From NCBI RefSeq assembly GCF_000014945.1, contig NC_008553.1:1-64000 (forward strand): a stretch of DNA of 64,000 nt, written 5' to 3'. Of this stretch, positions 47,663-60,755 are shown piece by piece. The notes under the pieces were generated by a model. That model had not been told where the DNA came from, ran no database searches, and was given only the letters and a program-made list of their open reading frames with translations. Numbering within the stretch: the first letter of the stretch is position 1; each line of letters begins with the position of its first letter. The translations under genes were made by a program, and so were the position numbers. Origin of the DNA: Methanothrix thermoacetophila PT. Its GTDB lineage: Archaea > Halobacteriota > Methanosarcinia > Methanotrichales > Methanotrichaceae.

Positions 47663-47741
47663 GGTGGGAAAGGTCTGAAAGACGTAATCCTGTGAGCTGA
47701 GAGTGCAGCAAGGCGCGAACTCCGGGAGTGGAGGTCACCTT

Positions 47742-48332
47742 ATGAGGAAGCTGATAGTTGCAAGGATAGTTCACTCGCCCGAGGACATGGGCTCGATGAG
47801 GGAGGGGCTTGAGAGGATGGGCGTCTCCAGGCTTGGAAGGGAGAAGTGGGAGGAGAACCGCATACGGATCGAGCGCTTCTGGGATGAGCTTGAGAGAGAG
47901 ATCGATCGCTTGGAGCTGGATCCGACTCGATTGCGCATATATCAGGATGGGTTGCCTGCTGGTGGGGAGATCGGAGAGCGGATAATCAGGGAGACTGCCT
48001 CAAAGGGGAGCAGGAACTATCAGATCATCGAGAAGCTCATGGAGAGGGGCGCGAGGATCGAGGCAACAGAGAGCCCTGAGCTGCTGCTGCGGGAGTATCA
48101 GCACATAAAGGCGATGGTATCAACCACTGGCGAGGAGCAGAGAAGGGCGCTGGAGGCATACAACAAAGAGAAAGATCGCCTTTTGGATGAACGGGACGCC
48201 TACATCGCAAGAAGAATAGCGGAGACGCTGCAGGATGACGAGACAGGCCTGCTCTTCATAGGCGCCCATCACAACGTTGTTCCCAGGCTGCCAGCGGACG
48301 TGGAGGTATCGTATCTGGGAGATCCCGGATGA
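47742..48332 (+). CDS. Conserved-looking hypothetical protein
   Basis: 196 residues from an ATG preceded by a near-perfect ribosome site (GGAGGTCACCTT). The protein is charged and largely helical (IEKLMERGARIEATESPELLLREY, EEQRRALEAYNKEKDRLLDERD). It ends in TGLLFIGAHHNVVPRLPADVEVSYLGDPG, which suggests a small alpha/beta end domain. I do not recognise the family. It adjoins the gas-vesicle locus (gvpH converges with it) but need not belong to it. Confidence 0.7.
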   Translation: MRKLIVARIVHSPEDMGSMREGLERMGVSRLGREKWEENRIRIERFWDELEREIDRLELDPTRLRIYQDGLPAGGEIGERIIRETASKGSRNYQIIEKLMERGARIEATESPELLLREYQHIKAMVSTTGEEQRRALEAYNKEKDRLLDERDAYIARRIAETLQDDETGLLFIGAHHNVVPRLPADVEVSYLGDPG

Positions 48333-48430: not shown

Positions 48431-49054
48431 TCAGCTCCTCACGCGATCGATCCTGAGCTGGAGTATGCCGTTCTTGAAGCTCCTGCTGATAATGTCTCCG
48501 GCATCTGGCGGGAGCTTCACTTCCTTTAGGAACTCCCCCGCCCTGATCTCCAGAACTCCTTCCCTGACCGTAACAGAGAGCTCATCCTCCTCCACCCCGG
48601 GAAGCTCAGCGACAACTGTTATGCTCTTCCCTTCATCCATCACATCGACTATCGGATCCTTTCTGGGAGTTCCAGGTATCCTGACCTCGGGCAGTCTTGC
48701 CGACGGCCTTCGCGCCCCCGGTTTGCTCAGAGGCCTCACCGAGATGTTGTAATCGACGACAGGCCTGCTGCTCCATCCAACCTCTATCCTGTGCCGAACC
48801 TCTGCATCAGTCTCCGCTATCCGTCTCTTGAACTCCGGCGAGGAGGCCTCAAGCGCCTTTATTATCCCTCCGAGGCCGGGGATGAACTGGCTCACAATAC
48901 CGCTGACTATCGAGGGCTCCTCCACTGCCTTCTCCTCTGGACCCCCCTTGACAGCGCCCTCACTGGTGAGGGATTTGAGCACCTTCTCGATCTCATCCAG
49001 CCTGCGCTCTATTTTCTCCAGGCGATCTTCATAGCCATTTGACATGCTGCTCAC
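48431..49054 (-). CDS. gvpH: Gas vesicle protein GvpH (Hsp20-like)
   Basis: 207 residues. An N-terminal coiled coil (RLEKIERRLDEIEKVLKSL) and a linker lead to a C-terminal alpha-crystallin domain (IVDVMDEGKSITVVAELPGV, VTVREGVLEIRA, SFKNGILQLRID). The order of domains and the gas-vesicle context match GvpH, a small-heat-shock-like accessory protein. It ends the minus arm of the locus. Confidence 0.85.
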   Translation of the reverse strand: MSSMSNGYEDRLEKIERRLDEIEKVLKSLTSEGAVKGGPEEKAVEEPSIVSGIVSQFIPGLGGIIKALEASSPEFKRRIAETDAEVRHRIEVGWSSRPVVDYNISVRPLSKPGARRPSARLPEVRIPGTPRKDPIVDVMDEGKSITVVAELPGVEEDELSVTVREGVLEIRAGEFLKEVKLPPDAGDIISRSFKNGILQLRIDRVRS

Positions 49055-49203
49055 TCCAAACCTAACATTTCAATACGTAATGATGGATTTTCTGCGCATG
49101 TTATCGCTCAATGACAATCCGGCACCATCTGAGAGCTGAAATCTCTCACTGGCCATCTCAATCCAAGCGAGGCATCGAGAGATATCTGCACCACGCGTAA
49201 AGA

Positions 49204-49476
49204 TCACCTGGATCGTATCTCTGCAAGTCGCTTTTTGTGAAGGGCAACTTTGGACATGTGCTTCCTCCTGACCTCGAGCATGTGCCTCGTGGACTTTGCC
49301 AGGCTGTCCCTCCAGGCTCTCTTTATCCTGAGCCTGTGGGATGCAGCTTTACACGCCATCTCCTCCCGCCTCGACCTTAGGTATGGCAGTATCTCATCCC
49401 TTAGCCGCATGCGGTGTTCAGTCACCTTTGCGTGCTGTATCATTCTGTTCTCCATGATTCTGGACCTTCTCGTCAT
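49204..49476 (-). CDS. Strongly basic small protein of the gas-vesicle arm
   Basis: 90 residues, very rich in arginine, lysine and histidine (MTRRSRIMENRMIQHAKVTE, RRKHMSKVALHKKRLAEIRS), predicted as one long helix. GvpI of haloarchaea is also small and basic and lies beside gvpH, so this could be its counterpart. Sequence similarity is not demonstrable by eye. It might bind nucleic acid or the acidic vesicle surface. Confidence 0.5.
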   Translation of the reverse strand: MTRRSRIMENRMIQHAKVTEHRMRLRDEILPYLRSRREEMACKAASHRLRIKRAWRDSLAKSTRHMLEVRRKHMSKVALHKKRLAEIRSR

Positions 49477-49688
49477 GTCTCACTCCCATATGGCAAAGCT
49501 GGCAGGAGGTATCATCTGAAACAAGCATCCAGCGAACGTATCGATATCCTGTATCTCAGGACGGAGAAGCAGGGGCCGCTCATACTTCCTTTTATAGAGC
49601 CGGATGCGAGTTTTCTTGAGTCCATCTCTCTGATCAGATTTAAGAGGTCTCTGCAAAGATCACCTTCAATCAATTTATCCTTCTTCAT

Positions 49689-50351
49689 TCAAGTTATCCT
49701 TGCCTGTCTGAATCCCTTTCTGCCCTTCCCCAGGATGTGTATGTCGACGAAGTTGTAAGGCGGCCACGGCCCGGAATAGCTTGTCCTCAGATCGCTGTGC
49801 TCCTCGATAACTGCACTTACCCGCTTCGAGAACTCATCGATCCTGGAACGCTCCACGAGAAATGCGGTGTTGAGAAGCAACCGATCGCTGAAGAGGTCGA
49901 GGTTCTTGAAGTCCACCGAGGACGCGCTGAGGCATTCCACGATCTCTCTTTTGAGTTCATCGTATTGTCCATTCGCATTCTTCGGCCTGATCACCTTGAC
50001 TCCAAGCTCGACCTTGCCCTCCACAACAGGCCACGCCTTCTTCATCGCAGCATATCCGGCGCTCATGGCCACAGCGAGATTCTTTCTGCCCTTGAACACC
50101 ATACCATATGCGACCGGAAGAACATCATGCTCCTCCATCACCCTCCTGACGACTCTCCTGTGGATCTCCACATCCCTCTCATCGACATCGTACTCCCTGA
50201 GTACTGCTTCGCTCACAACAGGATACAGGTCCCTGTATTCGATGGTGTGAACTTCACTGTTGCCGAAGCCAATGGGTCCGAAATCTGCATCCTCTGACCG
50301 GATCACGCAGTATACGTAAAGCCCTTTTTGGGCACTTCTCTTTGCCGGCAG
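49689..50351 (-). CDS. gvpF: Gas vesicle protein GvpF/GvpL family, probable CTG start
   Basis: GvpF-type assembly protein with VVRRVMEEHDVLPVAYGMVF and the family end YSGPWPPYNFVDIHI. A GTG at 50306 would cut off the first strand of the domain. The frame continues upstream as KGLYVYCVIRSEDADFG, matching the GLYLYCIV of the other GvpF/L protein here, yet no ATG, GTG or TTG occurs before the preceding stop. A CTG at 50351 lies 8 bases after GGAGG, so translation from CTG is likely (220 residues). GvpF contacts GvpA and starts vesicle assembly. Confidence 0.85.
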   Translation of the reverse strand: MPAKRSAQKGLYVYCVIRSEDADFGPIGFGNSEVHTIEYRDLYPVVSEAVLREYDVDERDVEIHRRVVRRVMEEHDVLPVAYGMVFKGRKNLAVAMSAGYAAMKKAWPVVEGKVELGVKVIRPKNANGQYDELKREIVECLSASSVDFKNLDLFSDRLLLNTAFLVERSRIDEFSKRVSAVIEEHSDLRTSYSGPWPPYNFVDIHILGKGRKGFRQARIT

Positions 50352-50354
50352 GGC

Positions 50355-50627
50355 TCACTCCTCCTCTATCCTCTCCAGGCCCCCTCGATGCCGGAGCTCC
50401 ATTCTACGATATCCGGTGATATCTCCATTCTCATCGAAGCTCATCTCATATCTGCCGATGATGTCCTGCGTATCCGGTATGGCCCTGCGCTCCAGCACCT
50501 CCACGTTCACGATCCATCCGTCCTCTGTTCTGGATATGCTGCTTATCGACTCGAACCGCTTCCCCAATAGCTCCTCGGCAGAGGTTCTGGCGATCCTGAG
50601 CATATCCTTGAGATTCGGCTTTTCCAT
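50355..50627 (-). CDS. gvpO: Gas vesicle protein GvpO
   Basis: 90-residue GvpO with the family features: an N-terminal helix (LRIARTSAEELLGKRFESI) and strands DGWIVNVEVLERRAIPDTQD and GRYEMSFDENGDITGYRRM. GvpO is essential for vesicle formation in haloarchaea. Its terminal GAGGAGGAGTGA doubles as the ribosome site of gvpF. Confidence 0.9.
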   Translation of the reverse strand: MEKPNLKDMLRIARTSAEELLGKRFESISSISRTEDGWIVNVEVLERRAIPDTQDIIGRYEMSFDENGDITGYRRMELRHRGGLERIEEE

Positions 50628-50639
50628 GTACTCAGACTC

Positions 50640-51002
50640 CTAGGGAACGAATATCAGATCGCAATCCCTCATGGCCTCAACATGCCTTCCGCACCAGCCC
50701 TTAACGGCCTCTCTGAGATTGCATCGTCTCTCTCTGTTCATGAGACCGTAGTACTTGAGGAACGAAGCCAGCCTCCTGCGCCTCGTTCTGCTTCTCCCCG
50801 ATGCTATAGTATCGAGGTCCGTTGTGCCGTCCGGCCTCAGGCAGAGGTAGAACGTCCTGGTCGCGATCCTACCGTCGTCGGTTCTGGCTCTGACTATCAG
50901 CGCCTCTGTCTCGTTGATCCTGAGCCCTTTTGGTCTCCTCGAGAAGATCTCGCCGACCCTGGCGATCCTAACATCCTGGATTGTGGCGCCGATCCTATCC
51001 AC
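50640..51002 (-). CDS. Unassigned protein between gvpN and gvpO
   Basis: 120 residues, overlapping the gvpN stop by eight bases and ending 12 bases before gvpO, so clearly in the gas-vesicle transcript. The N-terminal half looks beta-rich (IVRARTDDGRIATRTFYLCL). The basic second half (ASGRSRTRRRRLASFLKYYG) ends in WCGRHVEAMRDCDLIFVP. I know no gas-vesicle family with these features. It may be a lineage-specific accessory factor. Confidence 0.75.
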   Translation of the reverse strand: MDRIGATIQDVRIARVGEIFSRRPKGLRINETEALIVRARTDDGRIATRTFYLCLRPDGTTDLDTIASGRSRTRRRRLASFLKYYGLMNRERRCNLREAVKGWCGRHVEAMRDCDLIFVP

Positions 51003-52050
51003 CTGAACCCTCCTGGACAGCTGCTATCGCCTCACACACCAGCTCCCTCTTCTCCTCCATCTCCTTCTTGGAGCTGGTCTTGTTGGCGATCACATCTATG
51101 CAGATCTGGTCCAGTCCGATGCCGGAGCTTCTGTTCAGCATCTTCAACCCCTTGCCGATCATTATGCATGCTCTCGTTCCGGGCTTCTGCGCATCCGGAA
51201 GACGATCCCGCAGGTACCTCACGATCTCTACTACCCTGCGCGCAACATCCTCTTCAAGCCCGGTGTGCTCCATGACGATCCTCAGCTCTGTTTCGTATCC
51301 GTAGTAGTCCGTGTATATCCCGACCATTCTATCCAGAAGCGCATCCTGAGGTCTGTGGATTCCAGCATACTCTATCGAGTTTGATGTGAGGATGGCCCTG
51401 AACTCCGGGTGGACTCTTATATACCTGTCCTCGCCGAACTTCGTGGGCAGCTCCAGCACGCCCTCCTCAAAGACCGAGAGGAAGACGTTGTTCGCAGCGG
51501 GCTTGGTCCTGGAGAACTCGTTGTATATCAGCGTGTAGCCGTACTTGCAGGCAAGCGATAACGGATTATCGACCCACTCCACCTTCATGACATCCTTGCT
51601 CTTGAAGACATTGTGGATGTATTTGTCCCGGACGCTCTCGTTCTCGATCTGCGAGTAGCCACCTATGAGATCTGCCGTCGTTATCGACTCGTCCCCGTTT
51701 ATCCAAACCACAGGCCTTCCGAACTGGCGGGCGACATGCATCGCAAGGCTGGTCTTTCCGCATCCCGTGGGGCCTATGAGATGTACAGGGTACCCTGCAT
51801 CCAGCCAGAGCTTCATCCTAGCCTCGGTCTCCCTGACCTCGGGAGTCTCCACGAAGTGCTCGACCTCAGGCATCAGAAATGCTTCCTCGATCTCCTTCCT
51901 CAAGGTCTCGGGATCGCGGGCTGCTGTCTGTGATTGCACCTTTACTTGTATCTCCTCACGCTCTTTTGATAGCAGCAGCTTCTTCTCCCAGGAGGTCTGA
52001 TGGACGGACTCGCCTCTCACACGCCTCGGATGGGTGACAACATATCTCAT
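50995..52050 (-). CDS. gvpN: Gas vesicle protein GvpN (MoxR-type AAA ATPase)
   Basis: 351 residues. AAA+ domain with Walker A HLIGPTGCGKTSLA, GDESITTADLIGG, a Walker B-like TLIYNEFSR, sensor-1 ILTSN and an arginine in LLDRMVGIY. GvpN enlarges or matures vesicles. The first 50 residues (VTHPRRVRGESVHQTSWEKK...) are extra to the ATPase core. It lies after the GvpC-like gene in the minus arm. Confidence 0.95.
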   Translation of the reverse strand: MRYVVTHPRRVRGESVHQTSWEKKLLLSKEREEIQVKVQSQTAARDPETLRKEIEEAFLMPEVEHFVETPEVRETEARMKLWLDAGYPVHLIGPTGCGKTSLAMHVARQFGRPVVWINGDESITTADLIGGYSQIENESVRDKYIHNVFKSKDVMKVEWVDNPLSLACKYGYTLIYNEFSRTKPAANNVFLSVFEEGVLELPTKFGEDRYIRVHPEFRAILTSNSIEYAGIHRPQDALLDRMVGIYTDYYGYETELRIVMEHTGLEEDVARRVVEIVRYLRDRLPDAQKPGTRACIMIGKGLKMLNRSSGIGLDQICIDVIANKTSSKKEMEEKRELVCEAIAAVQEGSGG

Positions 52051-52090
52051 TTAGAACCCTCTGGCGATCATAAAAAATATCTACCGGTGG

Positions 52091-52996
52091 TTAACCGTAG
52101 TAGAAATCTCTTATATATTTATTAACATCCTGATCGACGTATCTCTGCATCTCATCTCTGAGAGCAAGAGCTCTGGAGTGCAGCTCTTTGGCGGCTATGT
52201 TCATCCTCGATATGGCATCACGGTTCTCTCTGACCTGGCTGTCCAGATCCGCTCTGAATCTCCTGAGTCCTTCATTGAGCTCTCTCGCCCCTTCCTCCCT
52301 GATGTGGTCACCGGATTTTCTAAAGTCGACTGACATCTTATCCATGGCGGATCTGATCTCCGCTGCACCAGAGCCCATCCTCGATACAGCATCGCGGTTC
52401 TTTCTGATCTGGCTGTCCAGATCCGCTCTGAATCTCCTGAGTCCTTCATTGAGCTCTCTCGCCCCTTCCTCCCTGATGCGCTCACCGGATTTCCTCAGTT
52501 CATCTGAGGTCTTGTTGATCGATAGCTTCATCTGGCGTACACCGGTGCGGATCTTTGCTATGCCCTTCTTGTTCTCTGTTACCTGCCCCTCTATCGATTT
52601 TTTAAGGGCGTTAACGCTCTTGGCCATTCTGCTCACACCCTCCTCCCGGATGGCGACTCCGGCGCTCCTCAGCTCCGAGGACTTTCTCCGCATAGCTTCC
52701 TGCCTTGCCCTAACACCCTTCCCTGGAACCACCGGAGGGACTTCTGGAGATACCTGTGGCTTGACTTCTGCGGCCTTTTCTGGCACCCCCTTTTGCTCCT
52801 CTGGTTTCACCTGAACCTCTGCTGTCCCGGACTCGGCGATCTGGGGCTGAGCCCGTCTCCTGGCCTCAACTATGCTCTCGGCCAGCTGGGCCTTTGTACC
52901 CCCAAGGCTCTGGATCCCAAGTTTAACTGCCATCTCCTCCAGCTCTCGCCGGGTGTGTTTCGTCACCAGCTCTTCTACAGTCTCTTCCATAGGCAT
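52091..52996 (-). CDS. gvpC: GvpC-like repeat protein with SAP-like N-terminus
   Basis: 301 residues between gvpA and gvpN, the classic place of gvpC. Residues 8-45 (TRRELEEMAVKLGIQSLGGT, then KAQLAESIVEA) look like a SAP helix-turn-helix. A proline-rich linker follows. Three consecutive 58-residue coiled-coil repeats (110-167, 168-225, 226-283) then follow: R-K-S-G-x-x-I-R-E-E-G-A-R-E-L-N-E-G-L, then RRFRADLDSQ...NRDA. Repeats two and three are nearly identical also at DNA level (174-bp period). GvpC stiffens the GvpA shell; the assignment rests on position and repeat design, not on direct similarity. Confidence 0.75.
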   Translation of the reverse strand: MPMEETVEELVTKHTRRELEEMAVKLGIQSLGGTKAQLAESIVEARRRAQPQIAESGTAEVQVKPEEQKGVPEKAAEVKPQVSPEVPPVVPGKGVRARQEAMRRKSSELRSAGVAIREEGVSRMAKSVNALKKSIEGQVTENKKGIAKIRTGVRQMKLSINKTSDELRKSGERIREEGARELNEGLRRFRADLDSQIRKNRDAVSRMGSGAAEIRSAMDKMSVDFRKSGDHIREEGARELNEGLRRFRADLDSQVRENRDAISRMNIAAKELHSRALALRDEMQRYVDQDVNKYIRDFYYG

Positions 52997-53014: not shown

Positions 53015-53044
53015 CAGGAGTTCCTGATCAGGCAGGAACTCCTG
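53015..53044 (-). terminator. Hairpin at the end of the last gvpA
   Basis: CAGGAGTTCCTG (53015-53026) and its exact complement CAGGAACTCCTG (53033-53044) form a 12-bp stem with a six-base loop. The hairpin covers the last codons and stop of the fourth gvpA and is followed on the minus strand by GATTTTGTGATATTT. It probably ends or stabilises most gvpA mRNA, giving more GvpA than the downstream proteins. Confidence 0.6.
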
Positions 53045-53258
53045 GTGCTGCGGCTATGGCAGCCTGCTCGATCTTCGCCATCTCCTCAGAGTAGTGGAGG
53101 AACGTATCGACGGATGCGACCACCACTCTCGCCTCGACCGTCAGTATCTCGATGCCAACCAGGGATACCCTGGCCCAGACATCGACCACTATTCCCTTGT
53201 CCAGGATCCTGTCGAGAACCTCGGCAAGGCTGGACGAATCAGGTGTTGATGTCACCAT
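53028..53258 (-). CDS. gvpA: Gas vesicle structural protein GvpA, copy 4
   Basis: 76 residues. Identical to the other three copies until the last residues (APGVPA instead of APSA), where the coding sequence merges with a strong hairpin. It is the last of the series in the direction of transcription. GvpA forms the ribbed protein shell; the helix-strand-strand-helix core is [57 protein letters not shown]. Confidence 0.96.
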
Positions 53259-53269
53259 TTCCTTTCACC

Positions 53270-53494
53270 TCACGCAGAAGGTGCTGCGGCTATGGCAGCC
53301 TGCTCGATCTTCGCCATCTCCTCAGAGTAGTGGAGGAACGTATCGACGGATGCGACCACCACTCTCGCCTCGACCGTCAGTATCTCGATGCCAACCAGGG
53401 ATACCCTGGCCCAGACATCGACCACTATTCCCTTGTCCAGGATCCTGTCGAGAACCTCGGCAAGGCTGGACGAATCAGGTGTTGATGTCACCAT
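53270..53494 (-). CDS. gvpA: Gas vesicle structural protein GvpA, copy 3
   Basis: 74 residues, the same protein as copies 1 and 2. The 236-bp repeat unit (gene plus the 11-base spacer GGTGAAAGGAA) appears identical base for base, including silent positions. The spacer supplies the ribosome site GGTGA for the next copy. Confidence 0.97.
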
Positions 53495-53505
53495 TTCCTT
53501 TCACC

Positions 53506-53730
53506 TCACGCAGAAGGTGCTGCGGCTATGGCAGCCTGCTCGATCTTCGCCATCTCCTCAGAGTAGTGGAGGAACGTATCGACGGATGCGACCACCACTC
53601 TCGCCTCGACCGTCAGTATCTCGATGCCAACCAGGGATACCCTGGCCCAGACATCGACCACTATTCCCTTGTCCAGGATCCTGTCGAGAACCTCGGCAAG
53701 GCTGGACGAATCAGGTGTTGATGTCACCAT
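53506..53730 (-). CDS. gvpA: Gas vesicle structural protein GvpA, copy 2
   Basis: 74 residues, identical to copies 1 and 3. It lies in the middle of the tandem array, 11 bases from each neighbour. Multiple copies raise the dose of the major shell protein. Confidence 0.97.
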
Positions 53731-53741
53731 TTCCTTTCACC

Positions 53742-53966
53742 TCACGCAGAAGGTGCTGCGGCTATGGCAGCCTGCTCGATCTTCGCCATCTCCTCAGAGT
53801 AGTGGAGGAACGTATCGACGGATGCGACCACCACTCTCGCCTCGACCGTCAGTATCTCGATGCCAACCAGGGATACCCTGGCCCAGACATCGACCACTAT
53901 TCCCTTGTCCAGGATCCTGTCGAGAACCTCGGCAAGGCTGGACGAATCAGGTGTTGATGTCACCAT
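53742..53966 (-). CDS. gvpA: Gas vesicle structural protein GvpA, copy 1
   Basis: 74 residues, first in the direction of transcription. Here the ribosome site is stronger (TTGGAGGTGAAAGGAA before the ATG) than in the internal copies, because the leader contributes GGAG. A divergent regulatory region of about 400 bases separates it from the response-regulator gene. Confidence 0.97.
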
Positions 53967-54363
53967 TTCCTTTCACCTCCAACGATTCTTTTCTCCAGAG
54001 ATATCTATTGGAGCGTGATATGTGAGAGCCCTCGTTTGTTGTACCGTGGAGCTTGTCAGTATAAAGGGGATGATCGAGCTGGGCCCGATCCATCCCCGCA
54101 GGAGGCTCTGGCCGTGTCCGACACCCGAGGGCGAAGACGGTATCATTATTAATTGAAACCATCCATGCAGATGTACACAGTGATGATTAAAATAGGTTAT
54201 CATCTGTCTAAAATAGTTTAAAATTTTGTCTCGCCTTATGTTTCCAGACGTTTGTCGGGAAGATTATCAACCGATGAAAATTGGTAAAATATAGAAGATG
54301 AGCGCGACCAGACTATATATCGAATCTTTATCAGATTCACGATAACAGCCGGGATGGTGCAGA
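53967..54363. promoter_or_regulatory. Divergent control region, gvpA / response regulator
   Basis: 397 bases with outward promoters. Toward gvpA the minus strand has a possible TATA CCCCTTTATACTG (54056-54068), which would give a leader of about 68 bases. Toward the response regulator there is ACTATATAT at 54312-54320, giving a start near 54343. The middle (54180-54300) is AT-rich with short A/T runs. No clear operator repeat was found. Confidence 0.5.
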
Positions 54364-54723
54364 ATGAAGGTACTGGTGGTCGATGATGCTCCCTTCATTT
54401 TGAGGGCACTGAGGGATTCCCTAGAGGCGCGGGGCTTTGAGATACACGAGGCGCAGAGCGGTGAGGAGGCGCTCTCTGCTTACAGGGATATCAGGCCGGA
54501 TGTTGTTCTGATGGATATTCTCATGCCTGGCATGAATGGGATATCAGTCACACGTGAGATCATGAATATCGACCCATCTGCCAATATCATCGTGATAACC
54601 GCGATAGGTAAGCCAGGGCTGGAGAAGGAGTGTATGGATGCCGGAGCGAAGGGTTTCATCCTGAAGCCATTCCGGATGCGGGATCTCCTGGATCTCATTG
54701 ATTCTCTCGGAAAGGGGCGATGA
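54364..54723 (+). CDS. CheY-like response regulator
   Basis: Stand-alone receiver domain of 119 residues: acid pair VVDDAP (D7, D8), phospho-acceptor D51 in VLMDILMPGMNG, threonine in VITAIG and lysine in LKPF. There is no output domain, so it must act through a partner. It is followed three bases later by a histidine kinase, and both point away from gvpA. Confidence 0.95.
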   Translation: MKVLVVDDAPFILRALRDSLEARGFEIHEAQSGEEALSAYRDIRPDVVLMDILMPGMNGISVTREIMNIDPSANIIVITAIGKPGLEKECMDAGAKGFILKPFRMRDLLDLIDSLGKGR

Positions 54724-54726
54724 GCG

Positions 54727-55860
54727 TTGAGAGGGATTGAGATAGTTCGCGGCTATCAGGAGGATATAATCGAAACGATACCCAGCACGATTATAATCGT
54801 CGACAGGAGACTGGAGGTGCTGTATGCTAACAGAAACTTCTATCTTAAGTCCTTCCGGACTGAGAAGAATGCAATAGGCATGCACCTCTCGAAGATATTC
54901 TCTCCTGTTTTCATGCAGAGGCTGAATAGTAGAATAGAAAAGGTTTTCTCCGCCGGAGAGCCGTTTGATGGGGAGCAGATCAGGTATCCGGGAGGCAGGT
55001 TCTACTTTTACAGAATACATCCCCTGAAGGAAGCTGGTGGTTACGTCAGCAAGGCAGTGATCTTCATAGAGGATATCACAGAGATGACCAGGCTCGAAGA
55101 GGAGCTGCGCGATTCATACATAAAGCTTGAGAATGCCTATGCTGAGCTCAAAGAGCTCGACAGCATCAAGTCAGAGTTCGTGTCCATGGTCTCACACGAG
55201 CTTAGAACACCTCTTACCGTAATTAACAGCTATATCGAGATGTTCGAGGATGGTATGCTCGGTGATCTCACAGATGTGCAGAAGGAGAAGCTCCAGCTGA
55301 TCAGATCGCAAACAGACACAATGATCCAGCTTGTAAATGACATGCTAGATATCCTGAGAATCGGATCAAGGCGGCTCAGGCTTAAGAAGGAGCTGTCGAG
55401 CATGGAGGAGCTGATCCGCTCTGTGATCGCAAGCTTATCGAGGCTTGCAGCTCTTAAAGAGCATACGATAACATTCAGATGCGAGAGGGCCAATACTCTG
55501 ATAGAGTGTGATCCCAAGAAGATAATGCAGGTTTTGAGCAATCTGCTCACGAATGCAATTAAGTACACCCCAGATAGAGGACAGATTGAGGTGGTTCTCG
55601 GGGGGGATGCAGAAAACGTTCTGGTGTCGATCAGAGACAACGGTATAGGGATCCGAGAGGAGGACAAGGATCGGATTTTTGAGAAGTTCTTCGTTATGAG
55701 CAATGAGAAGAGTGCGGATATTGGCATGGGTCTTGGCCTCTCCATAACAAAGGATATTGTGGAGGCGCATGGCGGACGGATATGGTTCGAGAGCAGGTTC
55801 GGAGAGGGGAGCACATTCTACTTCACTCTCCCCTGTGGTAAGGATACTGAGCGTTCTTAA
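54727..55860 (+). CDS. PAS-domain sensor histidine kinase
   Basis: 377 residues and no membrane segment. A PAS domain (about 13-120), a coiled coil, the HisKA box with the phospho-accepting H157 in FVSMVSHELRTPLTV, and the ATPase domain (N box NLLTNAIKYT, G1 DNGIGI, F box FEKFF, G2 GMGLGLS). A cytoplasmic sensor, perhaps of redox or a small ligand. Starts with TTG three bases after the response regulator. Confidence 0.93.
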   Translation: MRGIEIVRGYQEDIIETIPSTIIIVDRRLEVLYANRNFYLKSFRTEKNAIGMHLSKIFSPVFMQRLNSRIEKVFSAGEPFDGEQIRYPGGRFYFYRIHPLKEAGGYVSKAVIFIEDITEMTRLEEELRDSYIKLENAYAELKELDSIKSEFVSMVSHELRTPLTVINSYIEMFEDGMLGDLTDVQKEKLQLIRSQTDTMIQLVNDMLDILRIGSRRLRLKKELSSMEELIRSVIASLSRLAALKEHTITFRCERANTLIECDPKKIMQVLSNLLTNAIKYTPDRGQIEVVLGGDAENVLVSIRDNGIGIREEDKDRIFEKFFVMSNEKSADIGMGLGLSITKDIVEAHGGRIWFESRFGEGSTFYFTLPCGKDTERS

Positions 55861-56485
55861 TATCTTCAGAAGGAAACCGAGGGTTGTGCCGCTCACCGAG
55901 CCTGTGAGCACCCGCATATCGGAAGAGCTCTCCCGCGGCTCAGCGTATCTGGTCAGGGAGAAGAAGCCAGAGCTCAGCTTTCAGATATTCTCGTCGCTGG
56001 TGAGAGGACAGTGCGCGAGCTGCGAGCATCCTGATGCATTCAACTGCGAGAGCATAGGTTGTGAGAAGTGTACTCTCAAATGCCCGTGCAAGAGCTGCAG
56101 CCAGAAGAGGGCGCAGGGGCTCTGCTTCACCACCCAGCATCCCGAGCAGATCAGAAACAGGTATGTGCTTCAGACCACGCCGATCTTCTGGATCAGCAGA
56201 CGCGGCGAGAGTCAGACGACCGTAAGTAACCTGGAGATCATGGCTGATATAACTGCCAGGTTCCTGGAGAAGAGCCACAACCCTGTGGTTCTCCTGGATG
56301 GGCTGGAGCTTCTTGTAGTCACAAATGGTTTTGTCCAGGCCATCAGGTTCCTGCGCGACATCATGGAGATGGTATTCATAAGCAGAGGGATACTGATCGT
56401 GCCCGTGAACCCATCCGCCCTCTCTGAGAGGGAGATGGCATTGATCGAGAGGGACATGCAGGAGATACCCGCGAGATGGAGCTGA
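55835..56485 (+). CDS. DUF835 protein with a cysteine-rich insert
   Basis: About 216 residues from a GTG that overlaps the kinase gene by 26 bases. It follows the DUF835 pattern: GSAYLVREKKPELSFQIF, GLCFTTQHPEQIRNRY, TPIFWISRRG, VVLLDGLELLVVTNGF and IVPVNPSALSEREMALIERD. Between the first two comes a cluster of nine cysteines (CASCEHPDAFNCESIGCEKC, then TLKCPCKSC) that could bind zinc or an iron-sulfur cluster. DUF835 proteins often accompany archaeal signalling genes. Role unknown; probably part of the kinase/regulator unit. Confidence 0.85.
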   Translation: MVRILSVLNIFRRKPRVVPLTEPVSTRISEELSRGSAYLVREKKPELSFQIFSSLVRGQCASCEHPDAFNCESIGCEKCTLKCPCKSCSQKRAQGLCFTTQHPEQIRNRYVLQTTPIFWISRRGESQTTVSNLEIMADITARFLEKSHNPVVLLDGLELLVVTNGFVQAIRFLRDIMEMVFISRGILIVPVNPSALSEREMALIERDMQEIPARWS

Positions 56486-56656
56486 AGGTTCTTTCGCGCA
56501 TTTGTATCATTGAGATCGACAGCATCTGAATATTTTGAGACTTGTTCAGGATGTTAATGGCTGTGAATACGAATCAAATGCGAATAAAATCTTTGTGGTA
56601 TGAAGATCTGCTGAATCAAATCAAAAATGTTTCAAATCCTGAAATATCGAACAGAT
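56486..56656. other. Intergenic, upstream of padR
   Basis: AT-rich 170 bases between the DUF835 gene and the PadR promoter. No gene is seen. Confidence 0.5.
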
Positions 56657-56659
56657 CAT

Positions 56660-56682
56660 AAATACGTAATAATTATAAGTAT
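56660..56682 (+). promoter_or_regulatory. Promoter and possible operator of padR
   Basis: AATACGTAATAATTATAAGTATT contains the inverted repeat AATAC-13-GTATT and overlaps the TATA-like region (CATAAATAC) just before the ATG at 56694. PadR regulators commonly repress their own promoter, so this is a candidate binding site. Confidence 0.35.
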
Positions 56683-56693
56683 TTGGGGTCACT

Positions 56694-57083
56694 ATGTCTC
56701 TAGCATCTGTGGGAGGGGCTCTGATCGGAGAAATAAATCTCGAGCAGGATGATCGGGAGGAGGTCCTGAGCAGGTTCGTGAAGCCGAACAAGGACATACT
56801 CATACTCTCCATACTCGGAGAGCGTCCGATGTGCGGCTACGATCTCATCAAGGAGATATACAGGAGATACAATGTCCTCCTGAGCCAGGGCGCCGTTTAC
56901 CCCATCCTATACTCGATGGTGGATGATGGCATCCTGAGGTCTGAGTACAGCAGGGGAAATATGAGAACCAAGATCTACACCCTGACGCCTAAGGGACAAG
57001 AGGTGATGAGAAGAAAGATCGGAAAGATGGTATATGCTCTGGAGTACATGCTCTCGTTTCTGAAGGGATCATGCTCAGAATGA
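56694..57083 (+). CDS. PadR-family transcriptional regulator
   Basis: 129 residues: a winged-helix domain (DILILSILGERPMCGYDLIKE, SQGAVYPILYSMVDDGILRS, YTLTPKGQEVMRRK) and a short C-terminal dimerisation helix. It is joined to the KaiC/GvpD-like gene by an ATGA overlap. In haloarchaea gas-vesicle genes are controlled by GvpE and GvpD; this PadR may take the GvpE place here. That is inferred from position. Confidence 0.92.
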   Translation: MSLASVGGALIGEINLEQDDREEVLSRFVKPNKDILILSILGERPMCGYDLIKEIYRRYNVLLSQGAVYPILYSMVDDGILRSEYSRGNMRTKIYTLTPKGQEVMRRKIGKMVYALEYMLSFLKGSCSE

Positions 57084-57760
57084 GTATTGACGGCCTGGAT
57101 CGCATCCTCGAGGCTGACCCACCTGCCGGCTCTGTTCTGCTGGTCACCGGAGGGGAGGGCACACTGAAGTCCAGCCTGGTGCTGGCGATGATGTCCCGGT
57201 ACCTTGAGGGCAGCGCGGAGCATGGCCTATACGCGAGCCTGGAGCAGACTAAGGACAGCCATCTTAGAAACATGGATAGCATTGGGATAAGATGGCATGA
57301 GAACCTCCACATATTCGATTATAGAGATATGCGGATCGAATGGAAGGATCACAGACTCGACATGTTCAGCATGACAAAGGACGTCCTGGATATGTACATT
57401 GACAGGTACCGCGATCTCACGATCTTTGCCATGGACTCCCTTAACGCACTCTACGCTCTTTCTTCGAAGACAAACCTCCGCAGAAATGTTTACGACTTCC
57501 TCACCATGCTCAGGGATAGATGCCTCACATCCATTCTGATACTCGAGACAGGTGACGACTCCGGAAAGGGCGGCGAGAGGTTCCTCTCGGATGGCATCAT
57601 AGAGCTGGGCGTGATCGAGAGCTACAATGGGGTTAAAAGATACCTCCAGATCAGAAAGATGCGCGGTGTGAGGCATCTGATGGAGAAGCATCATCTTGTC
57701 GTGAAGCCAGGCGGGCTTGAGGTCGTGGGGCCGATATACGGACAACCCAGCACTTCCTGA
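57080..57760 (+). CDS. gvpD: KaiC/RAD55-type ATPase, GvpD-like
   Basis: 226 residues from the ATG at 57080. RecA-like fold with a P-loop TGGEGTLKSSLVL, where leucine replaces the glycine usual before the lysine, and a Walker B-like LTIFAMDSLNAL. GvpD, the gas-vesicle repressor of haloarchaea, is a KaiC-related P-loop protein that controls an activator. Coupling to padR by ATGA suggests the same partnership. Confidence 0.8.
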   Translation: MSIDGLDRILEADPPAGSVLLVTGGEGTLKSSLVLAMMSRYLEGSAEHGLYASLEQTKDSHLRNMDSIGIRWHENLHIFDYRDMRIEWKDHRLDMFSMTKDVLDMYIDRYRDLTIFAMDSLNALYALSSKTNLRRNVYDFLTMLRDRCLTSILILETGDDSGKGGERFLSDGIIELGVIESYNGVKRYLQIRKMRGVRHLMEKHHLVVKPGGLEVVGPIYGQPSTS

Positions 57761-58023
57761 ATCAGCATGCCGTATCGATGGGGAGATGCGAGCATGTTAA
57801 AGTGGAAGCATCTATCATGAGGGATAGCAGGGTGCGAACTCCAGGAGGCCACTCGATCAGCACCATTTTCATCCGCACAGGTAATCCTGCGTCACAGGCG
57901 TTTTTCTCAGAATCTGAGAATCATCTCGACAAGATTCGTGAAACATGGTATGAAAATAATTCAGACAGATGGCAAGGTATATTTTCCGTTCAATTTAAAG
58001 ATACCCTCAGGAGGTCCTGATGA
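57761..58023. other. Gap between gvpD-like and gvpG
   Basis: 263 bases. A short open frame (57778-58020) shows no family character. A TATA-like CAATTTAAAGA near 57991-58001 and AGGAGG at 58009-58014 sit just before gvpG, so a second promoter may start the assembly-gene arm here. Confidence 0.45.
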
Positions 58024-58272
58024 TTGTTCGTAATAGATGATCTTCTTCTGAGAAGCATCGGCATCTCAGTTCCTGGCCTGGATCTGATCTGGACGCTGGA
58101 GCAGATCAGGGGATATGCCCAGCGTGAGCTGTACAACCCTGAGAGAATAAGGAACCAGATAAAGGAGACCAGGCTCCTGTACGAGTTCGGAGAGATGAGT
58201 CACGAGGACTACTTGGAGAGAACAGAGCAGCTGATGCAGAGGCTCAGGATAGCGGAACAGCTGCAGAGGTGA
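58024..58272 (+). CDS. gvpG: Gas vesicle protein GvpG
   Basis: 82 residues, mostly helical, with the family shape: a hydrophobic N-terminus (VIDDLLLRSIGISVPG), then LIWTLEQIRGYAQRELYNPE and a C-terminal coiled coil (FGEMSHEDYLERTEQLMQRL). Starts with TTG behind AGGAGG. GvpG is an accessory assembly protein. Confidence 0.9.
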   Translation: MFVIDDLLLRSIGISVPGLDLIWTLEQIRGYAQRELYNPERIRNQIKETRLLYEFGEMSHEDYLERTEQLMQRLRIAEQLQR

Positions 58273-58333
58273 TCATGAGGGATGCTGACCAACGGCTCTG
58301 AGTGCAAATCAGAGCCTTCTGGAGGAGAGCTGA

Positions 58334-58714
58334 ATGGTACTTCCTGAGAAGGATTCGGACCGCGGGCTGGCCGGCGCGATCGATCGTATACTCGACAAGG
58401 GGCTGGTCATCAACGCGGATATCACAGTCTCGGTGGCTGGAGTCGAGCTGCTGGGAATAAAGGTGAGAGCTGCGCTTGCATCATTCGAGACCGCTGCAAA
58501 GTACGGCCTGGAGTTCCCATCGGGGATAAGCTGTGAGACCGGAGCATGGCGGGATGCGATGCTTGAAAGAGAGGAGTGCCCGCAGTGCGGGAAGAAGGTG
58601 CTGCGCGAGGAGCTCATGCACGAGTGCTGCCCGTGGTGTGGATGGACGAGCGCGCTCGCCAGGGATCGAATGCTGAAGATGCCCTTTGTTTTGAAGGACG
58701 ATTATGGAACCTGA
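58334..58714 (+). CDS. gvpJ: GvpA-family protein (GvpJ type) with C-terminal zinc ribbon
   Basis: 126 residues. Residues 9-57 are a GvpA/J/M core (GLAGAIDRILDKGLVINADI, VSVAGVELLGIKVRAALAS). The C-terminal part has cysteines 82, 85, 98, 99 and 102 in ECPQCGKK and HECCPWCGW, a zinc ribbon. GvpJ and GvpM are minor GvpA relatives needed for vesicle nucleation; I do not recall a zinc ribbon in them. Ribosome site GGAGGAGAG. It overlaps the next gene by 11 bases. Confidence 0.85.
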   Translation: MVLPEKDSDRGLAGAIDRILDKGLVINADITVSVAGVELLGIKVRAALASFETAAKYGLEFPSGISCETGAWRDAMLEREECPQCGKKVLREELMHECCPWCGWTSALARDRMLKMPFVLKDDYGT

Positions 58715-59396
58715 GAGGTGTACAAACGCAGGTCTGGTCGATCTCCTGGACAGGGTGCTCACAAAGGGGGTCGTTCTGAACGCGGATGTCATAATATCAG
58801 TTGCAGGTGTGCCTCTGCTCGGACTCAGCCTGAGGGCTGTGCTTGCTGGAATGGAGACCATGATCAAGTATGGCATGTGGAGGGACTGGGATACAGCCCA
58901 GAGGGCCTGGGTGGCAGAGCAGCAGAGGCTGAAATCGTTCACCACGAATTTTATGCTCAAGGGAGAGGAGGTGCGTATGAGGGCGTTCGGCACGTACTGG
59001 TACTCTCGGGGAATATACCAGGCATGGAGGCCTGGAGATGTGTGTGTTACGAACAGACGCATAGCTGTGTTCAGAAAGGATCCCCCTGAGATCATTTTCG
59101 AGGCATACTATGAAGATATAGAGGGTTTTGCCCTGGAAAAGGGGGAGATCGTGGCGAAGAGGGACACAGATATCCTTCACATCCATCTGAGGAATGGCGC
59201 GGTGGCAAAGATCCATTCAGCCGAGATCCAAGCTCTGAAAGATGTTGCAGAGCGGGAGATGAGATCTCTGAGATCACATCTGAATGGCAGGCCTGATGGG
59301 GATGCAGAGCGCCGTGCACCCACAAACATCCTCTCGAACGTGAGCACGACCAACGGATATGCGGAGAGGCAAATGGAATGCAAGATGCCGAGATGA
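58704..59396 (+). CDS. gvpM: GvpA-family protein (GvpM type) fused to a PH-like domain
   Basis: 230 residues. Residues 9-57 are a GvpA/J/M core (LVDLLDRVLTKGVVLNADVI, VAGVPLLGLSLRAVLAG). From about residue 80 a beta-rich domain resembles bacterial PH/GRAM-like domains: MLKGEEVRMRAFGTYW, RPGDVCVTNRRIAVF, IFEAYYEDIEGFALEKG, ILHIHLRNGAVAKI and a closing helix. The tail is disordered. The extra domain could dock the growing vesicle to another protein or membrane. The fold call is by eye. Confidence 0.82.
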   Translation: MEPERCTNAGLVDLLDRVLTKGVVLNADVIISVAGVPLLGLSLRAVLAGMETMIKYGMWRDWDTAQRAWVAEQQRLKSFTTNFMLKGEEVRMRAFGTYWYSRGIYQAWRPGDVCVTNRRIAVFRKDPPEIIFEAYYEDIEGFALEKGEIVAKRDTDILHIHLRNGAVAKIHSAEIQALKDVAEREMRSLRSHLNGRPDGDAERRAPTNILSNVSTTNGYAERQMECKMPR

Positions 59397-59419
59397 AATC
59401 AGTATCGGGAGACTAATGA

Positions 59420-59734
59420 ATGACCCTCAATATCGATGAGAGCAACCTGAAGCACGGCATTCTTGGGTTGGTCATAGCGCTTGTCGAGGTGATAAGGGAT
59501 GCTCTCAGGATTCAGGCATTGAGGCGCATGGAGTCGGGAACTCTGACCGAGGAGGAGGTGAACCGGCTTGGAGAGGCGCTGATGGAGCTCGACATCGCCC
59601 TAGACGAGATCAAAAGAGAGCAAGGTATAACAGAATCCGTAAAGGCTGTCCGCGACGGTCTGGATGAGATCGTCGATGATGTTCTCGATCGAATGCTGAA
59701 CCCTGAGAGGTGGGATGAGCATGAGGGAGAGTGA
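59420..59734 (+). CDS. gvpK: Gas vesicle protein GvpK
   Basis: 104 residues, helical, with the family core GILGLVIALVEVIRDALRIQ, RRMESGTLTEEEVNRLGEAL and MELDIALDEIKRE. GvpK is an accessory protein needed for vesicle formation. It overlaps gvpL by 20 bases. Confidence 0.95.
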   Translation: MTLNIDESNLKHGILGLVIALVEVIRDALRIQALRRMESGTLTEEEVNRLGEALMELDIALDEIKREQGITESVKAVRDGLDEIVDDVLDRMLNPERWDEHEGE

Positions 59735-60755
59735 TCTGAGAGATGCGATCGCAGAGATGGTCAGAGCTGAGGTCAAAGCGATCGGCGATGAGCTGGCTCC
59801 TGTGATTTCAGAAGTGGTGCGGGCGGAGCTCATGCCGGCGCTCAGGGCTGCGATAAGAGAGGCGATACTCAGAGAGCTGAGCACATACAGTGGAGATGCT
59901 GATTTCCGTGAAGTCAGCCAGGGAAGTGTCTTTTCCGAACCGGAGAAGATCAAGAATGTGACAGCAGAAGCGGTTGCACCAGAGACCGTCCCCTCAAATG
60001 AGAATGGCCTTTATCTTTACTGCATTGTGGATGCGAGTGTGTCCACGAGCCTTGGACACATGGGGATCGACGGATGTGAGGTATACACAATCCCACACGA
60101 AGGGGTATCAGCGGTGGTTCACAGCTGCCCCCTGGAGCCGTACAGGAGTGACGATGAGGAGACTGTGAAGAGATGGGTCAAATCACACCAGGAGGTGGTT
60201 GAGCTAGCAGCTGAGAGGTTCGGGACTGTGATGCCGTTCGGCTTCGATACGATCATAATGCCGAAGGAATTCTGCACGGCAGAAGAGGTTCTCAAGAAGT
60301 GGATCTCAGATGAGCTCGATGAGATACGGGCGAAGATGGAGAGGATCCAGGGCAAGAAGGAGTACGGGATCCAGATCTTCTACGATCCCCTGGTTTTCAC
60401 CAAGCGGGTCGAAGATGAGAGCGATGATGTGAGGATAATCAAGGAGGAGATGGCATCAAAGCCTCCCGGCATCGCATACATGTACAGGCAGAGGCTCGAA
60501 GCTGCTGTGAGGAGAAGGATGGATGAGCTCATCGGTGCGTATTTCAAAGATTTTTATGAGAGGATTCAGAGCAATGCGGATGATATAAAGGTGGAGAAGG
60601 TCAGGAAATCCGATGGAGACATGGTTATGATGATGAACCTCTCTGTGCTCGCCAGCGACGAAAAAGCTCTCGGCCAGGCTCTGGACGGAATCGCGGCAGA
60701 GCCCGGGATCTCTGTCCAGTTCACGGGACCTTGGCAGCCTTATTCGTTTGTATGA
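59715..60755 (+). CDS. gvpL: Gas vesicle protein GvpL (GvpF/L family) with N-terminal extension
   Basis: 346 residues. Residues 97-346 are the GvpF/L fold: ENGLYLYCIVD, VSAVVHSCPLEPYRSDDEE, ERFGTVMPFGFDTIIM, KKEYGIQIFYD and the end FTGPWQPYSFV. The first 95 residues are an added helical and linker region (MVRAEVKAIGDELAPVISEV, ALRAAIREAILREL). GvpL gathers other Gvp proteins during assembly. Last gene of the plus arm. Confidence 0.93.
   Translation: MSMRESDLRDAIAEMVRAEVKAIGDELAPVISEVVRAELMPALRAAIREAILRELSTYSGDADFREVSQGSVFSEPEKIKNVTAEAVAPETVPSNENGLYLYCIVDASVSTSLGHMGIDGCEVYTIPHEGVSAVVHSCPLEPYRSDDEETVKRWVKSHQEVVELAAERFGTVMPFGFDTIIMPKEFCTAEEVLKKWISDELDEIRAKMERIQGKKEYGIQIFYDPLVFTKRVEDESDDVRIIKEEMASKPPGIAYMYRQRLEAAVRRRMDELIGAYFKDFYERIQSNADDIKVEKVRKSDGDMVMMMNLSVLASDEKALGQALDGIAAEPGISVQFTGPWQPYSFV

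Follow-up and report, generated by a model that had tools for sequence, protein, structure and literature searches.

Archaeal gas-vesicle regulation is understood for the GvpE/GvpD pair of haloarchaea only (PMC4390858). GvpE is an activator; GvpD is an ATPase that binds GvpE and lowers its amount. The upstream activating sequence (UAS) of GvpE is 20 nt long, contains a pair of 8-nt boxes with 4 nt between them and sits next to the transcription factor B recognition element (BRE). The pair has been called relevant in few haloarchaea and is often not involved in conveying environmental signals (PMC4390858). GvpE has been likened to leucine-zipper proteins in the literature and has already been labelled a PadR regulator in one transcriptome paper (PMC11218638). 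A second related group is the archaeal KaiC-like signalling hubs, in which a KaiC-type ATPase is encoded with DUF835 and two-component proteins (PMC5847659). Here we describe five genes at positions 54364-57760 of a 64,000-nt stretch (the window; positions 1 to 64,000 of NC_008553.1) from Methanothrix thermoacetophila PT, whose genome is a single contig of 1,879,471 bp. The genes lie in the gas-vesicle (gvp) locus. We favour, with modest confidence, their assignment as a regulatory module for gas vesicles that follows the GvpE/GvpD plan, with a GvpE-like PadR protein, a GvpD-like KaiC partner and an optional input formed by a response regulator, a histidine kinase and a DUF835 protein. A sequence-only reading of the window had judged the circuit unlike GvpE/GvpD; Pfam cut-offs, a GvpE profile match and a repeat core with its 12-bp period point instead to likeness. 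The five genes and two short elements beside them are as follows.

54364-54723, plus strand: receiver-only response regulator (RR; PF00072, E 2e-30), without an output domain
54727-55860, plus strand: predicted cytoplasmic PAS histidine kinase (HK; PF08448, PF00512, PF02518), with a TTG start
55835-56485, plus strand: DUF835 protein (PF05763), whose fold is predicted to be an inactivated KaiC; has nine invariant cysteines
56694-57083, plus strand: PadR-family regulator (PF03551), the candidate GvpE counterpart and the sole GvpE-profile match in the genome
57071-57760, plus strand: KaiC-family ATPase (PF06745) with a modified P-loop, GxEGTLKS; overlaps padR
54313-54320, plus strand: CTATATAT, putative TATA box for RR-HK-DUF835, kept in five Methanothrix genomes
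56660-56684, plus strand: imperfect dyad AAATACGTAATAATTATAAGTATTT directly 5′ of padR, kept in five Methanothrix genomes

Pfam matches bear out the row of genes and the families that the sequence-only reading had assigned, and by gene order the five correspond to Mthe_0064-0068 in the numbering of PMC10470525. The layout is one of two tight blocks, RR-HK-DUF835 (54364-56485) and PadR-KaiC (56694-57760). RR and HK are separated by 3 nt and HK overlaps the DUF835 gene by 26 nt; the latter probably starts at the conserved GTG at 55835, the open reading frame (ORF) itself opening at 55757. The overlap between padR and the KaiC-type gene is 13 nt. The two blocks stand 208 bp apart; conserved sequence in this gap lies immediately 5′ of padR, where the dyad AAATACGTAATAATTATAAGTATTT may be an autoregulatory site or the promoter of padR. 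HK has the architecture PAS_4-HisKA-HATPase and, with a peak 19-residue hydropathy of just 1.04, is taken to have no membrane segment; all five proteins are predicted to be cytoplasmic, in keeping with the cytoplasmic signal that had been proposed. HK carries the H-box histidine and the N and G boxes, and RR the receiver aspartate and lysine, of two-component proteins. In alignments the phosphoacceptor D51 and K101 are invariant among RR homologues, and H157 and N276 are invariant wherever HK is present.

The PadR-KaiC block resembles the haloarchaeal pair in that a gene for a PadR-type protein adjoins one for a KaiC-family ATPase, beside a divergent gvpA. The order is padR-kaiC here but gvpD-gvpE in haloarchaea, and the Methanothrix module adds RR, HK and DUF835. 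A PadR-type winged helix is common to PadR and GvpE. GvpE proteins from two genomes score 30.7 and 32.3 with the Pfam PadR model (cut-off 27), and both GvpD proteins pass the KaiC model (52 and 55; cut-off 26.6). A PadR-type ORF occupies the gvpE position at all eight haloarchaeal gvpDE loci examined. Alignment of PadR and GvpE profiles with hhalign gave E 2.5e-8. When the GvpE profile from those eight loci was searched against the Methanothrix genome, the locus PadR was the one match at E≤1 (E 2.9e-6); in six other Methanotrichaceae genomes searched, the same profile ranks the gvp PadR first. The relation of PadR to GvpE is secure at the level of family and only suggestive at the level of orthologue.

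The module ATPase scores 94.9 bits with PF06745 (gathering cut-off 26.6), and its profile matches KaiC structures with E 4e-36. Its P-loop, GxEGTLKS, is found in all 13 aligned homologues; leucine replaces a glycine of the Walker A motif GxxxxGK[ST]. The same glycine-to-leucine change occurs in two related proteins from Methanosarcinaceae that lack gvp genes. There the KaiC-type gene adjoins, or lies within a few genes of, genes for REC-PAS-DUF835 proteins, an arrangement resembling the present one. Membership of the GvpD family itself was rejected for the ATPase, which is without PF07088 and aligns weakly with the GvpD domain (hhalign probability 7%). The earlier description as GvpD-like holds at the level of the KaiC superfamily and fails for the family-specific domains PF07088 and PF20440 and for the P-loop. 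We note that the only PF07088 protein of the genome (469 aa; 473245-473757, ~473 kb) lies far from the gvp locus. In one haloarchaeon a PadR gene adjoins a two-domain KaiC gene several kb from the same gvp cluster (L166:1266-3188), possibly a paralogue of the GvpE/GvpD arrangement; in another, transposase-like ORFs lie between gvpD and gvpE (L159:10794-11836).

Fusions of PadR to MEDS, another inactivated KaiC domain (PMC5847659), are found inside gvp clusters of Methanoperedens (L077:3065-3904 and L083:3778-4638) and of another family (L111:12531-13439). The MEDS part scores near, slightly under, the Pfam cut-off. These fusions combine PadR with an inactivated KaiC domain and therefore support contact between PadR and the KaiC-type ATPase. 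The two proteins are the best candidates for control of the gvp promoters, as the sequence-only reading had suggested.

Aligning five Methanothrix genomes exposed a sequence block common to the gvpA and gvpG promoters, each with a candidate operator.

54189-54244, minus strand: gvpA operator/promoter; GAAAC, GAGAC, TAAAC and GACAG at 12-bp spacing, then TATA-like TATTTT
57928-57985, plus strand: gvpG operator/promoter; GACAA, GAAAC, GAAAA and GACAG at 12-bp spacing, then TATA-like TATATTTT

With up to three mismatches allowed, the 24-bp pattern has exactly two sites in the 1.88-Mb genome, the gvpA and gvpG promoters, while the reversed control pattern has no occurrence in the genome. A role as a general promoter element was rejected on the ground of this uniqueness. 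The 24-bp element forms the end of a direct-repeat array (12-bp period, GAAAC core) that runs into the TATA-like box. Autocorrelation peaks at 12 bp (z = 12.6; other tested lags ≤3.1), a value that is merely indicative because the sequences are related. A scan of the window's 16-kb gvp region for arrays with a score of at least 12 of 15 gave these two promoters only, and no operator-like repeats were seen before padR or RR. Most other Methanotrichaceae, and most Methanoperedens loci examined, have a recognisable array 5′ of gvpA. Its geometry is that of the GvpE UAS, a 12-bp spacing abutting BRE/TATA at gvpA. The Methanothrix element is placed at gvpA and gvpG, whereas the haloarchaeal one is at gvpA and gvpD. 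One haloarchaeon that has gvpDE carries at its gvpA promoter (TGAAACGGTTGATGAAACGGCTGATGAAACGGCTACTGAAACTATA) four perfect TGAAAC repeats with a 12-bp period before the TATA box, which match the Methanothrix array in core, period and position; the period is seen in haloarchaeal loci L166 and L177, and of the gvpDE loci (n = 8) one has four repeats, a second three and a third two.

On the reading that we favour, PadR would bind the repeats abutting the gvpA and gvpG TATA boxes and most likely activate both operons. The opposite sign has also to be considered: PadR may keep the two promoters blocked, to be released from them by the KaiC-type ATPase or by a ligand. Most studied bacterial PadR proteins are repressors. 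The PF03551 match and the nearest solved relatives place the protein with PadR-type regulators, repressors among them, and a conserved dyad immediately precedes padR itself. However, the repeats, like the GvpE UAS, precede the TATA box and do not cover it or the start site; they are direct repeats and not a single palindrome, and the related GvpE is an activator (PMC4390858). We consider repression improbable, though it deserves to be kept in view.

The two operons with the repeat element, Mthe_0055-0063 and Mthe_0069-0073, shift together in published RNA-seq (PMC10470525). They are ~2- to 3-fold higher in acetate-grown cells than in cells grown by direct interspecies electron transfer (DIET), and ~2- to 11-fold higher without magnetite than with it. 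This joint change fits a shared operator and a regulator that is not itself under that operator. Mthe_0064-0068 are not among the co-varying genes listed, which is weak evidence because the table lists annotated gas-vesicle genes. The sequence-only reading had held that independent expression would speak against a link with gvp. The separate upstream regions of the module and its absence from that list do lean towards independence, but the expression of a regulator does not have to follow that of the genes it controls.

Conservation was surveyed in 50 Methanotrichaceae genomes, of which 21 have gvpA and 29 do not. PadR is present in 18 of the 21 and in one of the 29 (P = 1e-9); for the KaiC-type gene the counts are 16 (one partial) and one (P = 6e-8). 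The genomes are related and the P values thus nominal; the association of both genes with gvp is not due to chance. In the sole gvp-negative exception (G028), the PadR-KaiC pair is at the edge of a contig. The order gvpA<-->RR-HK-DUF835-PadR-KaiC recurs across gvp-bearing Methanotrichaceae, and the same divergent order is found in four Candidatus Methanoperedens loci (L077, L081, L088 and L091). The five genes thus belong to the gvp locus in two archaeal families, and the conservation of order, proposed as a check in other methanogens, is found across the Methanotrichaceae and also in Methanoperedens. An intact five-gene set apart from gvp, which the sequence-only reading had held would count against the link, was looked for and not found: no locus of the cysteine-type DUF835 with enough flanking DNA is without gvp. 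Four loci (L076, L078, L082 and L093) end at a contig edge and were not judged for gvp linkage. The cysteine-type DUF835 is likewise absent from the gvp-negative Methanotrichaceae genomes. The stated position between gvpA and the assembly genes is confirmed, with a refinement. gvpG, gvpJ, gvpM, gvpK and gvpL do lie beyond the module; gvpN, gvpO, gvpF/L and the gvpH-like gene are on the gvpA side. Placement between gvpA and gvpG is peculiar to the genus Methanothrix. In genomes other than those of Methanothrix proper, every assembly gene is found on the same side as gvpA, which leaves the module at the edge of the locus.

PadR is the nearest to universal of the locus regulators and the sole DNA-binding protein conserved there. 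In two genomes (G008 and G015) it is the only one of the five, divergent from gvpA, and the operator is retained; PadR and operator together outlast the other four genes. Methanosarcina gvp clusters also keep PadR alone of the five, divergent from or flanking the cluster, but no RR, HK, DUF835, KaiC-type gene or GAAAC operator was found with it. These loci bear on a second alternative, in which a regulator encoded elsewhere binds the operator and the five genes control something else, for example vesicle assembly through protein contacts. The operator-less Methanosarcina PadR loci are compatible with this, as are the KaiC-DUF835 neighbours that occur without gvp, the missing Mthe numbers among the co-varying genes and the assignment of PadR to the operator by comparison of sequences. 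Against it are the persistence of PadR together with the operator in genomes that lack the other four genes, its standing as the one conserved DNA-binding protein, its similarity to GvpE and the common repeat geometry. We judge an outside regulator quite unlikely.

The two blocks are separable. They are split or inverted in one Methanotrichaceae genome (G042) and in Methanoperedens L083; the same internal HK deletion of ~950 bp is found in G043 (L036:7350-7519) and G046 (L038:7583-7716); and the sensory block is absent from the two genomes that keep PadR alone. The term "complete sensory module" was therefore an overstatement. RR-HK-DUF835 could even be a general signalling unit, at the locus by chance and not acting on PadR-KaiC. 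The rearrangements and deletions would suit this, and so would a second PadR-KaiC pair on a contig without gvp (G029, L064:7719-8803); that genome also carries the full module at another site. However, where the sensory block is present it lies beside gvpA in two families, and the cysteine-DUF835 is missing from gvp-negative genomes of the family, its homologues with adequate flank all being beside gvp. Chance co-location is, in our view, unlikely.

Several observations weigh against a GvpE/GvpD-type module. The single GvpE-profile match must be read against an uncounted total of PadR proteins in the genome. In the reverse search, with a profile of the methanogen PadR against eight haloarchaeal genomes, GvpE came top in only four, and strict orthology is thus unproven. 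GvpE has 184-202 aa with ~85 residues before the winged helix, whereas PadR has 129 aa with ~35. The ATPase gave no PF07088 match at E≤0.1; it has 229 aa and a KaiC domain only, and the C-terminal basic region PF20440 was not found in it. GvpD has the Walker A sequence GAPGTGKT, unlike the module ATPase, which is without that P-loop glycine. GAAAC repeats are clear in just three of the eight haloarchaeal gvpDE promoters, five being without them, and no GAAAC array was found in the Methanosarcina PadR-gvpA intergenic regions. The two Methanothrix genomes with deleted HK retain RR, DUF835, PadR and KaiC without other visible damage. Finally, the proposed binding of PadR at the repeats draws on sequence comparison.

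The DUF835 protein suggests how an input might reach the PadR-KaiC block. It scores 91.6 bits with PF05763 and has cysteines at 60, 63, 71, 76, 79, 83, 85, 88 and 97, invariant in 22 homologues. The structural model (mean pLDDT 74) has FlaH (4yds, E 9e-5) as best fold match, with RecA/KaiC structures also matched; residues 67-81, part of the cysteine loop, are modelled below pLDDT 50. The model agrees with the description of DUF835 as an inactivated KaiC (PMC5847659) in predicting a RecA/KaiC fold. Alignment of the KaiC and DUF835 profiles with hhalign gave no significant match. The clustered cysteines point to metal or redox state as a possible input. HK would sense a cytoplasmic signal and phosphorylate RR; RR, DUF835 or both may then alter the state of the KaiC-type ATPase through KaiC-fold contacts. 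The ATPase, translationally coupled to padR and the proposed GvpD counterpart, would bind PadR and set its activity or amount, with RR-HK-DUF835 as a removable input. The module differs from the KaiC-like hubs in that REC, kinase and DUF835 are encoded by separate genes, the DUF835 protein contains an insert with nine cysteines, and the genes are linked to gvp and a PadR; it gives the idea of KaiC hubs in archaeal signalling a specific case to work on.

If the homology and shared operator hold, haloarchaea, Methanothrix and Methanoperedens would have a regulatory core in common, and a candidate for the missing signal input would come from the methanogen form. The module would also provide a mechanism for the fall of both gvp operons in electron-transfer growth and with magnetite (PMC10470525). 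A broader proposal, plausible but tentative, is that GvpE/GvpD-type control is older and wider than the handful of haloarchaea to which it had seemed restricted, a PadR-KaiC version with the same 12-bp operator serving methanogens and ANME-2d and being wired to HK and a cysteine-rich, dead-KaiC adaptor for redox or metal sensing; buoyancy would then be set by a redox or metabolic signal from the cytoplasm. The exact DNA sites and residues given here allow these ideas to be tested.

The module is flanked by the following gas-vesicle genes.

53028-53966, minus strand: four tandem gvpA genes (starts 53258, 53494, 53730 and 53966), PF00741 on all four
58024-60755, plus strand: gvpG, gvpJ, gvpM, gvpK, gvpL/F operon (Pfam/NCBIfam)
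48431-52996, minus strand: gvpC-like coiled coil, gvpN, unknown ORF, gvpO, gvpF/L, unknown ORF and gvpH-like gene (Pfam)

The genes at 48431-52996 lie downstream of gvpA in an order kept in relatives, and gvpG is the first gene of another unit, which has a conserved promoter of its own. ORF 57778-58020 was rejected as a gene; it is poorly conserved and overlaps the conserved gvpG operator. The four GvpA proteins are identical except for the last residues of one, the tandem repeat unit being 236 bp; copy number differs among relatives. The GvpJ-type protein (58334-58714) has a C-terminal CPxCG zinc-ribbon-like extension and the GvpM-type protein (58704-59396) a long C-terminal one. A weakly TraB-like ORF (47739-48332) borders the gvp cluster here and in many relatives. 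An Rfam search returned a tRNA as the sole match, with none in the gvpA leader. This transcript leader is probably ~190 nt long (53967-54165, minus strand), is predicted to fold unusually well (z = -3.8) and shows strong conservation among five Methanothrix genomes; its stem GGGGAUG...CAUCCCC is kept despite a shortened loop in G042.

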